DNA of 47,911 bases from Fimbriimonadaceae bacterium (GTDB lineage: Bacteria > Armatimonadota > Fimbriimonadia > Fimbriimonadales > Fimbriimonadaceae): contig JALOLT010000003.1 of assembly GCA_025455775.1 (NCBI GenBank), positions 1 to 47,911 on the forward strand. Reading direction: 5' to 3'. Of this stretch, positions 35,714 through 41,866 are shown piece after piece; position 1 is the stretch's first letter; every line of letters starts with the position of its first letter. Position numbers and translations under genes: made by a program. Below the pieces are notes generated by a model that was not told the DNA's origin, made no database searches, and worked only from the letters and a program-made list of their open reading frames with translations.

Positions 35714-35789
<76 letters not shown>

Positions 35790-35797
35790 AAAATCTT

Positions 35798-35829
35798 AAA
35801 ATGGGGTCACTCTTTGGTGATCCCATTTT
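35798..35829 (+). terminator. tRNA-Ala terminator
   Basis: AAAATGGGGTCAC / GTGATCCCATTTT (13-bp stem with one G-T pair, 6-nt loop) lies 8 nt after the tRNA and ends in a T run within the stem. Confidence 0.8.
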
Positions 35830-35847
35830 AGGTTTAGGAGGTTGGGG

Positions 35848-35938
35848 CGAGAAGTTGAGCGGAGCGAAATCCCGCCGAGTCTGCGAGGGAAATGAGCGGA
35901 GCGAATCGGGAACCCCCCTTACCTCCACCAAAAATCTT
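35848..35938. repeat. 65-bp direct repeat plus tRNA 3'-end copy (DR1)
   Basis: 35848-35912 is identical over 65 bp to 36160-36224. It is followed by CCCCCTTACCTCCACCAAAA and ATCTT (35914-35938), a 25-bp copy of the tRNA 3' end and its flank at 35773-35797. This has the form of an attachment-site duplication made by an element integrating into the tRNA gene. Confidence 0.85.
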
Positions 35939-35969
35939 TAAGTTGGGGCTGCCTCTTTCTCTTGTAAGT

Positions 35970-36142
35970 TGCCTACCCCGCCTCCCCGAGGCCACGCCCT
36001 CCCCTCAGCTTGTGCTTCGGGGCTGCGCCTCGGCGGGGCAGGTGAGTTCGAAGTGGAGACTTGGAGGAAAGGTCCCCTGGGCGTGATCGGACAGCGTCCT
36101 TGGAAACCTCAGAGGGGGCTGCCCGTTTTGAGACGGTCCCAT
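35970..36142. repeat. Interspersed repeat, copy B (core inverted relative to copy A)
   Basis: Left arm TGCCTACCCCGCC (35970-35982), core 35983-36031, right arm GGCGGGGCAGGTG (36032-36044). The core is the reverse complement of the copy A core (13755-13803) with one mismatch in 49, but the downstream flank GAGTTCGAAGTGGAGAC... is in the same orientation in both copies. It ends near a hairpin with ATTTTCTT (about 36115-36148). Confidence 0.88.
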
Positions 36143-36159
36143 TTTCTTGGTAGATGTGC

Positions 36160-36240
36160 CGAGAAGTTGAGCGGAGCGAAATCCCGCCGAGTCTGCGAGG
36201 GAAATGAGCGGAGCGAATCGGGAAGCCCCCTTACCTCCAG
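36160..36240. repeat. 65-bp direct repeat plus tRNA 3'-end copy (DR2)
   Basis: Second copy of the 65-bp repeat (36160-36224), followed by GCCCCCTTACCTCCAGCA, a two-mismatch copy of the tRNA-Ala 3' end. The Toprim/primase remnant begins right after it, so this is the likely junction of an integrated element. Confidence 0.8.
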
Positions 36241-36241
36241 C

Positions 36242-36529
36242 AATCAACAAAGTGTCACCCATGTCTTGGTGTGCTCGCAAGTCGCCGATCAGGCGGGGGA
36301 TGATGCCGCCGAACGGATGGGGGGCGAACTCCAAGCGTTTGGGGCCTGTTGCTCCAGGCATCGGCCAAACGCTGGGAAAGACTGGAACGAGCTTCTCCAA
36401 ACCCAAGGGGCGGAAGCGGTCCGGGCTTCTCTCGCTTCGATCCGGGCCACCGATCCTCTCAGCATCTATGAACCCGTCCCGCCTGGTCTGTTTGAAGAGG
36501 CCGAGGTTGACCCCTTCGCGGATGACTAG
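36242..36529 (+). pseudogene. Toprim/primase-like mobile-element protein, C-terminal remnant
   Basis: An open frame with no start of its own runs from the repeat junction to TAG 36529. It contains QVADQAGDDAAERMGGELQ, then RHRPNAGKDWNELLQTQGAE. This matches the C-terminal end of Toprim-type primases and DUF3991/TraC-like plasmid proteins, where '...D.D.AG..Aa..l...L......rP...KDWNe.L' is typical. The family's catalytic N-terminal domains are missing; the segment was cut at the att-like repeat. It is the best evidence that the downstream cassette arrived on a plasmid-like or integrative element. It overlaps spurious frames on both strands. Confidence 0.65.
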
Positions 36530-36976: not shown

Positions 36977-39900
36977 ATGTCGCTCACCGCTCTTTCCCGT
37001 TCCCGTACGTTCCGTGCCCTGTCACTGTTTATGGCCGGGACGATGACCTACAGCGCGTCGGCGGCGGGATTGAACGCCCTGACTCTTGGAGCGGTGGAAC
37101 TCGGTTCTCAGATTCTGAGGGGACGGGCACCTCACTTCACCGAGCGTCCGACGAAGGTGTTCCGTGGTGACAACCCGCGCCGGGACGCCTTACGGTCAAG
37201 CTGGTGGACACCGAGACTCCAACGCGACCTAGAAAGCGCCGAGTTCTCCCGTGAGATTGATCAGGCTGTGCAGCGGGGAGAGGTTTACGCAAGCCTCGAC
37301 CCCGCCGGGCTCGTTCCTCTCCTCCGCGGGCAGGTTCAAGGTGGAGGCGGTTCGGGTAGCGGGGGTGCCGCACCGGGTGAAAGTGGTGGACCATCGGGAG
37401 GTTCTGGCTCAGGTGGTGGTACCGTACCAGGTGGTGGAGGAGCACCTTCTGGGGGAGGCGGCGGCCTTGGAGGAGAAACCAACACCAACACAGGAAACAA
37501 GCTCACCACCCTTCCCATTGTCGGTTGGTCATCTCGCGGGGATTCCGCCATTGGTTTCACCCTCTATCACAACAGCGTTGGAACTTACAACGGCGCGTTG
37601 GGGCAAGGATGGAGCCACTCCTACGACGTGTCCATTGCCTACACGCCAGGCTCTTCGGCTATCATTCGCATGGCCGACGGTCTTCAGGTGCCGTACACTG
37701 AGTCAAGCGGAACGTTCACACCACCAACAGGCTGTTACCACAGCCTAGTCAAGAACACGAACGGTTCTTGGACGCTGACCTTCAAAAACCAATCCAAGTA
37801 CCAGTTCAACACTGCGGGCCTCTTGACAGCGGTTCAAGATCGGGCCGGGAACTCGGTTAGCGTGCACCGGAACGCTGGGGGGCAGATTACGTCCATCGCT
37901 TCTCCCGATGGCAGAGCCCTTAGTTTCGCTTACGATACAAACAACCGGGTTTCTAGCGTCACCGACCCCACGAACCGGGTCTGGAGCTTCACCTACAACG
38001 CTTCTGGCCAACTTACTGGGGTCACCTATCCGGCCCTGAACGGAACCCTGTACACGCGGGGCTTTACGTATAACGCGGCCCATGACATCCTCACCGAGAC
38101 CGATCTAAGGGGGAAAGTCTGGTCGTGGACGTACGATTCCAGCGGGAAGATGCTCTCTTTCACGAATCCGTTGAACCTGACCACGGGATACTCCTACACC
38201 GCTTCTGCCACCACGATCACGTTCCCAAACGGCACGACTCGTACGGACAACTATTCGAGTGGCCTTGTTGCCAGTTCGGTGGATCAAGCGGGGTTCTCTC
38301 AGAGCTATGTCTACGACGCGAACCGGAACCTCACGAGCCTCACCGATAAGCGCGGGAAAGTGTGGCAGTTCACTTATGACGCCAAGGGCAACCGTCTTAC
38401 CGCCAAGAACCCGCTGAACCAGACTTGGACTTACTCCTACAATGCCACGAACGATCTGACGAGCAAAGTTAGCCCCTTAGGGCACACGACCACCTACGTC
38501 TACAACGGTCAGGGGAAGGTCACGGGTGTTACCGATCCGCTGAGTCGTCAGAGCGTGACCCGAAGCTACGATGGATACGGGCAGGTTATCTCATCCGCCG
38601 ATGCCCTTGGTCGAACTTCCACATACACCTATAACCTTCGGGGGGATTTGACCGGGGCCACTAATCCTTCTGGTGTAACTTCCACCACGACTTACGACGA
38701 GTTATCGCGTCCGGTGACGGTTACTGATGCGTTGGGGAATCAAACAGGGATCAGTTACGACGAGTGGAGTCGTGTCGTTACCACCACCCAACCAGGTGGA
38801 GCAACCGCTACGGTTACCTACAACCGGGCAAATCAGCCCATTTCCGCTTCAGACCAAGCCGGGCGGACAACTTATTCAAGCTACAACGATGCGGGATGGC
38901 TATTGAGTAAGACCAATGGACGAGGGGATACCGAAAGCTATACCTATAACAACCTCGGCCTGGTTGCAGCGATTACGAACGGGAGAGGCAAGACCCGTAC
39001 ATTCACCTACACAGTCAGGAATGAGGTAGCTTCGCTCAACCTTCCAGATGGTTCAACCGAGCAGTGGAGCTACAACGCTAACGGGGACGCTTCTGCATAC
39101 ACAAACCCACTTGCTCAGGTTATCTACTACGGGCAGGATGATGGTGGGCGTTATACGCTGGTGGACTACCCTACAGGCACGGACACGGCTTTCTCTTACG
39201 ATGCCGCTGGACGCAGGACGGGCATGGCGGACGCTACCGGAACCACCACCTGGGTCTACGATGCAGCTACTCAGCTCACCCAGATTGTTCAACCCCAAGG
39301 GACGCTTAACTACACCTATAATCTCGCTGGCCAACGTACGGGCCAGATTGGAGCGGGCCAGAGCCAAAGCTGGGTCTACAATGCCTCAAGCGGTCGTCTA
39401 ATGAGCCAAACGAACGGTTTTGGTGAGACGACGGGCTTCCTTTATGACTCCCTTGGCTGCACCTCCCGTAAGACGTTCTCTTCGGGACAGTACGAGGAAT
39501 ACGGCTACGACAACCGAAACCGGGTGACGAGCATCGTTCTGAAGAACTCATCGGGTACGACGCTCAGGACTCAGAGCTATGCCTACGACGCAAGCTCTAA
39601 GATCACGGCGCACACGGTAAACGGGGTGACCACGGCCTACAACTACGATGGGGCAGGCCAGCTTCTTTCCGAGTCTCGGCCCGGTTACAGCGGGGCTTAC
39701 ACCTACGACGGGAATGGCAACCGCCTCACCCGCACAGTCAATGGAGTTACCGAAGCTTATACCTATGACGATGGCGACAAACTCCTCAACGTCTCCATTG
39801 GTGGAAACGTGGTCAAGAGCTACGGCTACGATGCGGCGGGGCGAACCACCTCGGTTGTTTCTTCGGCGGGAACCACGACCTTAGCCTATGACTTCGAGAG

Positions 39901-40813
39901 CCGGGCCACTAGCATCGTGGGACCTGGAGTCTCTCAGTCCAATATCTACAACGGGCTAGACACGAGAGTGGGCTCGACAACAAACGCCGCCTCTCGTACA
40001 TTCTTGCGAGACGGAGCATATGTCACTGACCCTGTTCTCGCGGATGGTGCGGCCACTTATACGCCAGGTGTCTCTGAGCGCAGGGGAGCGGTAACGACCT
40101 TCCTGCACTCGGGACTCAAGAACGCGGACGCCCAAAGCGGAACCAGCCAAGCGGTGGCGGCATCCCGGCAGTACGACGCCTTTGGAAATCTCGTGGCTTC
40201 ATCGGGCACTTGGAGCGGCCCGTTCGGCTATGCGGGAGGCTTCGGCTACCAGGAGGACGCCACGGGGCTCCGGCTCCTCGGGCACCGCTACTATGACTCA
40301 TCAACGGGGCGATTCCTAACCCGTGACCCGATCAAGGATGGAGGTAACTGGTATGTCTATTGCGGCAACTCCCCGACGGAATTTGCTGATCCCAATGGCC
40401 TGATGCTGGTTTCGCTCTTGCTTGAAATGTCCCAGCCCAGGTACGAAGTAAAGCTTCGCGTGATGAACGTGGGTAACCCCGTGCACCCAACGGGACACGC
40501 TTGGGTGGATGTGAGAGACCGACATACAGGTGAGCACCATACCTACGGAAACTTTCAGGATGGAGCAGCTCAAGATGCAGAATTGCTTGGAGGGGACAAA
40601 CCTGATGCCGAAAGAGTGTTGAACCTCAGTGAACTGCAGGGAGAGCCGATGGATCCATCTGACAATGGATGGCCATATCATACGCTATGGTTCAATTGCG
40701 TAACATTTGCCCTTGTTGAGTGGGAGAGGCTGACTGGTGAGTCGATACCTCTTCCCATGCCACATAGGCCAGGAGACTTATACTTGACACTGAGATATTT
40801 GGCTACTGAATGA
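36977..40813 (+). CDS. Rhs/YD-repeat protein with candidate C-terminal papain-fold toxin tip
   Basis: This 1278-aa protein has a hydrophobic N-terminus (residues about 12-32, TFRALSLFMAGTMTYSASA) as an export signal or anchor. A Gly/Ser-rich linker (about 116-172) follows, then an RHS N-terminal domain (YHNSVGTYNGALGQGWSHSY) and many YD repeats, for example SYVYDANRNLTSLTDKRGK. The RHS core end GLRLLGHRYYDSSTGRFLTR, then YCGNSPTEFADPNGLM (PNGL at 1139-1142), marks the shell boundary. The 136-residue tip is unlike the core: it has VHPTGHAWVDV (His1174) and LWFNCVTFALVEW (Cys1241). A His-before-Cys order with an Asn before Cys suits a permuted NlpC/P60-like or LRAT-like papain fold. The next gene overlaps the stop (ATGA). 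GAGGAG supports ATG 36977. Confidence 0.93.
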   Translation: MSLTALSRSRTFRALSLFMAGTMTYSASAAGLNALTLGAVELGSQILRGRAPHFTERPTKVFRGDNPRRDALRSSWWTPRLQRDLESAEFSREIDQAVQRGEVYASLDPAGLVPLLRGQVQGGGGSGSGGAAPGESGGPSGGSGSGGGTVPGGGGAPSGGGGGLGGETNTNTGNKLTTLPIVGWSSRGDSAIGFTLYHNSVGTYNGALGQGWSHSYDVSIAYTPGSSAIIRMADGLQVPYTESSGTFTPPTGCYHSLVKNTNGSWTLTFKNQSKYQFNTAGLLTAVQDRAGNSVSVHRNAGGQITSIASPDGRALSFAYDTNNRVSSVTDPTNRVWSFTYNASGQLTGVTYPALNGTLYTRGFTYNAAHDILTETDLRGKVWSWTYDSSGKMLSFTNPLNLTTGYSYTASATTITFPNGTTRTDNYSSGLVASSVDQAGFSQSYVYDANRNLTSLTDKRGKVWQFTYDAKGNRLTAKNPLNQTWTYSYNATNDLTSKVSPLGHTTTYVYNGQGKVTGVTDPLSRQSVTRSYDGYGQVISSADALGRTSTYTYNLRGDLTGATNPSGVTSTTTYDELSRPVTVTDALGNQTGISYDEWSRVVTTTQPGGATATVTYNRANQPISASDQAGRTTYSSYNDAGWLLSKTNGRGDTESYTYNNLGLVAAITNGRGKTRTFTYTVRNEVASLNLPDGSTEQWSYNANGDASAYTNPLAQVIYYGQDDGGRYTLVDYPTGTDTAFSYDAAGRRTGMADATGTTTWVYDAATQLTQIVQPQGTLNYTYNLAGQRTGQIGAGQSQSWVYNASSGRLMSQTNGFGETTGFLYDSLGCTSRKTFSSGQYEEYGYDNRNRVTSIVLKNSSGTTLRTQSYAYDASSKITAHTVNGVTTAYNYDGAGQLLSESRPGYSGAYTYDGNGNRLTRTVNGVTEAYTYDDGDKLLNVSIGGNVVKSYGYDAAGRTTSVVSSAGTTTLAYDFESRATSIVGPGVSQSNIYNGLDTRVGSTTNAASRTFLRDGAYVTDPVLADGAATYTPGVSERRGAVTTFLHSGLKNADAQSGTSQAVAASRQYDAFGNLVASSGTWSGPFGYAGGFGYQEDATGLRLLGHRYYDSSTGRFLTRDPIKDGGNWYVYCGNSPTEFADPNGLMLVSLLLEMSQPRYEVKLRVMNVGNPVHPTGHAWVDVRDRHTGEHHTYGNFQDGAAQDAELLGGDKPDAERVLNLSELQGEPMDPSDNGWPYHTLWFNCVTFALVEWERLTGESIPLPMPHRPGDLYLTLRYLATE

Positions 40814-41205
40814 TGAACCAGAAACGCTGGATGCTTCTTTGCGGGATTGCGCTTTTGCTCATTTGCACTGGGCTGCTTGTCGGACAGTTGCGCGACCACT
40901 ACGTGCTTCGTTCGCAGATTGAAGGAGAGGCGACGTGGACAGTAAGGATTTTGCCAAACGGCAAGAAAGTACTGCTTGTTGAAGGTATTCAGGCAAACAG
41001 TGTTGGCTCAAACTTACTTCTATCTGGTGGGTGGGCAAGCAATACGTTTACGTTGGAGGTCTTTAGTTTTCCGTTCCGGAAGTCAAAACTTAGAATTCCT
41101 GTCGATCCAATAGTTGTGGCCGTACCACCCAACATCGACACGGACCATGTCACGGTTCAGGTAGCGCGAGGAGATAGCTATCTGGTGCTCAAGAAAGTGC
41201 CCTGA
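40810..41205 (+). CDS. Membrane-anchored small protein, candidate immunity to the Rhs tip
   Basis: This 131-aa protein begins MMNQKRWMLLCGIALLLICT, a basic N-terminus and a single membrane helix (about 7-26). The remaining 100 residues form a beta-rich outer domain (GEATWTVRILPNGKKVLLVE, FTLEVFSFPFRKSKLRIPV, VTVQVARGDSYLVLKK). No known family is recognised. The start overlaps the Rhs stop by 4 nt (ATGA), the usual position of an immunity gene, and the anchored outer domain fits protection against a toxin acting in the periplasm. This role is inferred, not shown. Two adjacent ATGs (40810, 40813) are possible starts. Confidence 0.6.
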   Translation: MMNQKRWMLLCGIALLLICTGLLVGQLRDHYVLRSQIEGEATWTVRILPNGKKVLLVEGIQANSVGSNLLLSGGWASNTFTLEVFSFPFRKSKLRIPVDPIVVAVPPNIDTDHVTVQVARGDSYLVLKKVP

Positions 41206-41241: not shown

Positions 41242-41388
41242 TGGATTGGACAGCTCCCTTTTTCTTTCTCACTCTATAGAGTAGTGCTCCTCCGTCATTT
41301 TGTCTTGTGATGTCTTGAAAGAGGAAACGGGGGTCTGTCCCTCGAGGGCGGAGTGCTTCCTTTCGTTGTTGTAAAAGTTGCGGAAGAG
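41242..41388 (-). mobile_element. IS3-type insertion sequence remnant (transposase C-terminus)
   Basis: On the minus strand a frame ending at TGA 41269-41271 reads ...INLFRNFYNNERKHSALEGQ, then TPVSSFKTSQDK. This is the C-terminal end of an IS3/rve-type transposase, where 'YN.eRpHsaLgg.tP' is diagnostic. The sequence beyond the stop includes GGATTGGACAGCTCCC (about 41244-41259), possibly the element's terminal inverted repeat. The transposase body and the other end are absent; its 5' side abuts the GH10 fragment at about 41386-41390. It marks the right edge of the accessory region. Confidence 0.75.
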
Positions 41389-41866
41389 GTTGATCGACCA
41401 GAAGGTGCCGATCCACGCAGTTGGAATTCAAGCCCACTGGCGAATGGATCTGCCCCTGGATCAGACCGAAAAGGCGATTCAGGAGTTTCACGCCCTTGGG
41501 CTGAAGGTGATGATCACAGAACTTGATATTGGGGTGCTTCCCACCCAGTATCAGGGAGCTGACCTCTCCCGGGGGACAACTATGACGCCAGAGCAGCAGG
41601 CAGTGATGAACCCTTACACAAAGGGGCTGCCAGCTGATGTTGCCAGGCTGCATGGTGAGCGTTATAGACAAGCCTTCGAGCTTTTTTTGAAGCACAGGGA
41701 CAAGGTTGGTCGCGTCACGCTCTGGGGCGTCCACGACGGACTGTCTTGGCTCAATGGCTTTCCCATCCGCGGCCGGACTGATTACCCTCTCCTTTTTGAC
41801 CGTAACCTCAAACCTAAGCCAGCATTCTTTGCTGTCCAACAGGCGGCGCAAGCGGCGCGTCAATAG
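41386..41866 (+). pseudogene. GH10 endo-1,4-beta-xylanase, N-terminally truncated
   Basis: From about RLIDQKVPIHAVGIQAHW the frame matches the C-terminal half of family GH10: the substrate strand, MITELDIGVLP with the nucleophile Glu, GERYRQAFELFLKHRDKVGR, VTLWGVHDGLSWLNGFP (the conserved Trp pair) and PLLFDRNLKPKPAFFAV. The N-terminal half, with the acid/base Glu in the 'DVVNE' strand and any signal peptide, is missing: the sequence ahead is the IS3 remnant on the other strand. Hence the gene was cut by the insertion or the loss that made this junction. The stop is TAG 41866, and the remnant is presumably inactive. Confidence 0.88.

Follow-up and report, generated by a model that had tools for sequence, protein, structure and literature searches.

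RHS Toxins and Permuted Papain-like Enzymes

The RHS toxins of type VI secretion systems (T6SS), such as Rhs1 from Photorhabdus, are built from a YD-repeat shell, paired DPxxx/DPxGL motifs and a variable tip, the paired motifs being an aspartyl autocleavage signature (PMC8636562). A second kind of protein to which the locus described here can be compared is represented by the permuted NlpC/P60 enzymes, which combine a conserved tyrosine and a Cys/His pair with a hydrophobic S1 pocket suiting acyl groups (PMC3142127). Tox-Act1, a T6SS effector with this permuted domain, is a phospholipase acting on phosphatidylglycerol and phosphatidylethanolamine; its toxicity shows in the periplasm but not in the cytoplasm and is lost when its His or its Cys is changed, while its immunity protein, Imm-Act1, is membrane-associated (PMC12994826).

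The locus studied here is found in a Fimbriimonadaceae bacterium, in a stretch of DNA of 47,911 nucleotides (hereafter, the window). Like the Tox-Act1/Imm-Act1 pair, it would consist of an antibacterial-type toxin in which a His precedes the Cys and of a membrane-associated immunity protein encoded by the adjacent gene. Unlike Tox-Act1, the candidate toxin is the tip of an RHS protein, its His and Cys are separated by 67 residues instead of 108, and VipA, the sole T6SS marker searched, gave no match in the draft genome; moreover, Imm-Act1 holds two membrane helices, and the partner found here only one. These comparisons were made through published descriptions.

The RHS Protein and Its Core Boundary

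The RHS gene (positions 36977-40813 of the window, + strand) encodes a protein of 1278 amino acids, whose RHS core identity is certain. Its shell, delimited by Pfam and NCBIfam matches and by motifs, comprises residues 1-1138 (36977-40390, + strand), down to the Asp of DPNGL, and presents, in this order, an N-terminal stretch that resembles an export signal, a DUF6531 domain (PF20148, E 8.6e-8), about 23 RHS/YD repeats (PF05593, E 1.2e-78), and the Rhs-associated core (TIGR03696, E 3.2e-17, residues 1066-1142). These matches bear out the RHS architecture that a preliminary description of this DNA had considered established. Since the TIGR03696 match stops at residue 1142, the core is taken to end at DPNGL, which confirms the boundary proposed at PNGL (residue 1139), with the codon of P1139 at 40391, one base past the start originally given.

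The motif DPNGL at residue 1138 is paired with DPIKD at residue 1117, and both fit the DPxxx/DPxGL autocleavage signature reported for other RHS proteins (PMC8636562). In addition, the boundary sequence SPTEFADPNGL fits the PxxxxDPxGL criterion of RHS polymorphic toxins. In its repeats, paired motifs and variable tip, the protein is therefore similar to T6SS RHS toxins; in contrast to them, no PAAR match was detected in its N terminus with Pfam, and its genome yielded no VipA.

A Polymorphic RHS System with Unrelated Tips

In all, 18 Rhs-core boundaries are found in the same genome, and many of these core ends are close relatives of the one studied (for example, GYAGGFGYQEDATGLKLLGHRYYDSSTGRFLTRDPIKDGRN), with unrelated tips behind them. 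Nucleotide identity to the related cores ends before the tip, and the GC content is 57.7% in the core, 50.6% in the tip, and 49.5% in the partner gene. The combination of related cores, unrelated tips, adjoining ORFs, and low GC in tip and partner points to exchanged tip/immunity cassettes. The core and its boundary are strongly supported, this locus is one cassette of a real polymorphic RHS toxin system, and the co-inheritance of tip and partner is also supported, in line with the RHS toxin tip and partner gene of the preliminary description.

The partner gene (40810-41205, + strand) overlaps the RHS gene by ATGA, as previously noticed. A -4 overlap between an RHS tip and the next ORF occurs in three cases in this genome, the studied pair included, and spacings of +2, -8, -14 and -16 are seen in others. 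The encoded protein, of 131 amino acids, shows one hydrophobic stretch at residues 7-25 (KD19 2.41, with nothing else above 1.1), corresponding to the single N-terminal membrane helix already described, followed by a C-terminal domain some 95 residues long that, judging from its sequence, could be the outer beta domain suggested before. According to its position, the overlap, the common composition and the membrane anchor, this protein is probably the immunity protein that guards its producer. The anchor is consistent with a target in the envelope, but is no special evidence for it, because many of the partner ORFs behind RHS tips in this genome look membrane-bound.

Other cassettes of the genome deserve mention. 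Three RHS tips (L045, L046 and L050) consist largely of hydrophobic sequence, and each is overlapped or abutted by an ORF with many hydrophobic helices; they are possibly pore-forming toxins with membrane immunity. Two more (L044 and L054) hold HH motifs (GHHFIPTEFW and HHLLPQ) and have a nuclease-like look.

The surroundings of the locus bear on whether the tip could be a decayed RHS relic, located in a rearranged region and devoid of present function. Directly downstream of the cassette there is a 3' remnant of an IS3-type transposase (41247-41389, - strand; L055 2253-2816), sharing 94% identity with copies elsewhere in this genome. It is abutted by a GH10 xylanase gene reduced to its C-terminal half (41378-41863; PF00331 positions 189-310, E 2.9e-29), so that this point is a rearrangement junction. 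Upstream of the RHS gene, positions 35714-36526 comprise a tRNA-Ala (ggc) followed by a short Toprim-like remnant, a site that is possibly an insertion hot spot. Nevertheless, such a relic is improbable, as both the 1278-amino-acid frame and the overlapping partner gene are unbroken and the tip retains its candidate catalytic residues. A fuller IS3-type copy, to which the remnant is 94% identical, is found on contig C167 of this genome, directly behind a short RHS tip.

An Orphan Tip with the Landmarks of Permuted Papain-like Domains

The C-terminal toxin tip (residues 1139-1278, including the last residues of DPNGL; 40391-40813, + strand) is predicted to be a permuted papain-like cysteine enzyme. 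The 136 residues past GL have no match in Pfam, NCBIfam or PHROGs, which agrees with the early observation that they differ from the shell. Neither the tip nor a trimmed version of it matched any Pfam family up to E 10, PF05903 (PPPDE) included. Relatives of the tip were absent from NCBIfam, PHROGs, PDB sequences, plasmid and phage records, viral contigs, two further groups of genomes (343 and 307), and a collection of genomes from 85,000 species scanned with peptide patterns. None that was convincing appeared in 291 genomes of the phylum, where the weak matches inspected looked like chance. When the 85,000-species collection was scanned with a His...NC DNA pattern, the 16 matches obtained were all due to chance, and the pattern GHTFI...NCTDF only gave chance matches in viral contigs. 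The collections searched with the partner yielded no relatives either. Tip and partner are new in sequence, and orphans in every collection searched.

The tip exhibits H1174 in a GHAW motif, Y1234, N1240-C1241 in FNCVTFA, and a C-terminal PGDLYLTL, with the His and the Asn-Cys exactly at the residues originally indicated. The His is N-terminal to the Cys, an order that fits permuted NlpC/P60 enzymes. H1174 and C1241 are the candidate catalytic residues, and Y1234 may be equivalent to the catalytic Tyr described for this branch (PMC3142127). A canonical NlpC/P60 tip, in which the Cys comes first, was also considered and is disfavoured, given that the sole His past C1241 is found in PMPHRPGD, with no fitting motif and no Pfam match.

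The permuted His/Cys order is common to the tip and to the PPPDE/DeSI (C97), LRAT, YiiX/YaeF (C92) and Lnb_N (DUF4105) families, although a Pfam search with the tip matches none of them. A PPPDE search in related genomes revealed two weakly matching domains, both from a second genome of this bacterial family, L023 (GHTFI...NCTDF) and L033 (GHVST...YNFLTNNC), with E values to PPPDE/Peptidase_C97 of about 5e-4 to 7e-4 that fall below the cut-off, and with weaker matches to LRAT or Lnb_N. L033 led in turn to an RHS tip from Azoarcus (L069) and to phage proteins (L067 and others), and a search with Lnb_N provided another reference, L066, in which a Y-x(5)-NC landmark is seen, as in the tip.

Of these domains, L023 shares with the tip an EV strand, GH[TA][FW], a Tyr at position -7, NC..F, G..[IL]P and PG.L in identical order. 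The identity between both is 23% in a two-sequence alignment and the similarity is not significant; furthermore, L023 differs from the tip in being part of a protein with Ig-like repeats, with no RHS core attached within the stretch read. L033 (1348-1755, - strand; E 7e-4 to PPPDE) is an RHS tip, and the ORF behind it encodes a lipoprotein-like N-terminal hydrophobic segment ending in Cys, a layout that resembles that of the studied pair. The RHS tips L033 and L069 and the phage proteins L067 and L073-L079 share with the tip the GH strand, Y-x(4,5)-NC and P..L, but they hold GHVS in place of GHAW, their inter-motif region is different, and the pairwise similarity is not significant. The phage proteins are large proteins from viral contigs with an internal GH...DYNFL[TSF]NNC domain related to an RHS tip family.

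Pairwise and profile comparisons of the tip were not significant, although the pairwise z-score test also fails to join several reference domains of accepted permuted families to one another. The landmarks themselves were scored as three blocks, one at GH, one at NC and one at the C-terminal P..L...L, built only from five independent reference domains of the permuted papain-like type. The tip, whose own GH, NC and PGDLYLTL fall in register, reached a score of 18.45, a value that 7 shuffles out of 20,000 attained in one run and 3 in another; these figures are optimistic because the block anchors were picked with the tip in view. When each reference was held out, its score was reached by none of 4,000 shuffles. 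Six further RHS tips from this genome, and the partner, gave no significant score. Among 834 windows of other ORFs, eight scored as high as the tip, and the best six of those eight belong to the reference families.

A Tyr located six or seven residues ahead of the Cys is present in the tip and in all five references. The pattern GH-x(45-110)-Y-x(4,5)-NC arose in 408 of 1,000,000 shuffles of the tip, and in about 267,000 ORF residues it retrieved only the reference domains, the tip, and a single locus originally obtained with a related motif. It is thus nearly exclusive to such domains.

The AlphaFold model of the tip had a pLDDT of 43.9 from the single sequence and of 51.4 when six short fragments of the phage relatives were supplied in register. 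Its low-confidence elements are strands at 18-29, 32-43 and 49-54 and helices at 96-115 and 127-139, with GH on the second strand and NC inside helix 96-115 (model with pLDDT 51). With low confidence, this order of strands and helices agrees with that expected for a permuted papain-like domain. No papain-like match, on the other hand, was obtained for the models (pLDDT 44 and 51) with Foldseek and VIA-align, a negative result that means little for models of such low confidence.

According to these data, a toxin tip of a different fold, in which GH...Y...NC would be accidental, is unlikely, even though no method gives a significant homology or fold match and the models are of low confidence. 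An accident would have to account for multiple landmarks with the right order and spacing, reached by only 3-7 of 20,000 shuffles, for a pattern almost absent from other ORFs, and for the agreement in the order of the modelled elements. The tip can thus be assigned with fairly good confidence, on the basis of its sequence, to the permuted papain-like enzymes. The fold first proposed is probable rather than shown, because the searches gave nothing significant and even the better of the AlphaFold models is of low confidence; what speaks for it is the order and spacing of the landmarks in the block test.

Proposed Mechanism and Substrate

The preliminary description suggested that the toxin would attack peptidoglycan or lipids. 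By analogy with the characterized members of the branch, lipids or other acyl compounds are the preferable substrates within this proposal, given the hydrophobic S1 pocket of the permuted enzymes (PMC3142127) and the phospholipase activity of Tox-Act1 (PMC12994826), and the most likely target of the tip would be acyl bonds at the target membrane. A role as a DeSI-like protein isopeptidase is conceivable, as the nearest two reference domains, L023 and L033, have their best scores with PPPDE/C97 (E 5e-4 and 7e-4, not reaching the cut-off). If this were the case, the permuted papain-like tip would cut peptide or isopeptide bonds in proteins, as PPPDE/DeSI-like enzymes do, or the stem peptides of peptidoglycan, and not lipids. 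The short distance from His to Cys in the tip is also consistent with such an activity, and enzymes of the C97 branch have ubiquitin-like proteins as their substrates (PMC10318531). However, the tip itself has no PF05903 match, and both the hydrophobic pocket and the one tested toxin of the branch, a phospholipase, argue against it, so that this specificity is regarded as rather doubtful.

In the mechanism that is preferred, the RHS protein would be exported from the cell, as its signal-like N terminus suggests, with the tip carried within the RHS shell and presumably cut free past DPNGL by the aspartyl autoprotease motif of the core. The tip would act at or outside the cytoplasmic membrane of the target, where Cys1241, activated by His1174, would attack an acyl bond, either ester or amide, and Tyr1234 may lie close to the oxyanion site. 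The substrate would most likely be a membrane lipid or a lipidated protein. The 131-amino-acid protein, anchored by its helix in the producer membrane, would bind or block the tip and confer protection. Taken as a whole, this explanation of the cassette (an RHS toxin, a permuted papain-like tip acting on acyl bonds, and a membrane-anchored immunity protein) is considered reasonably likely, and confidence in the full mechanism is lower than in the permuted papain-like assignment by itself.

Significance of the Tip/Partner Pair

The RHS system is ordinary in kind, and the tip family is of a known kind. A bolder possibility, put forward only tentatively, is that the pair represents a new minimal family (about 120 residues) of permuted papain-like toxins that hydrolyze acyl groups of lipids or lipoproteins, borne by RHS shells in a lineage that lacks a T6SS and held in check by a membrane-anchored, one-helix inhibitor of new fold. 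Since tip and partner are small and cleanly bounded, the pair is easy to test. The orphan tip and its partner extend the repertoire of RHS toxins and represent a probable use, beyond T6SS effectors, of the permuted papain-like fold, whose role as an antibacterial phospholipase toxin was demonstrated only recently.
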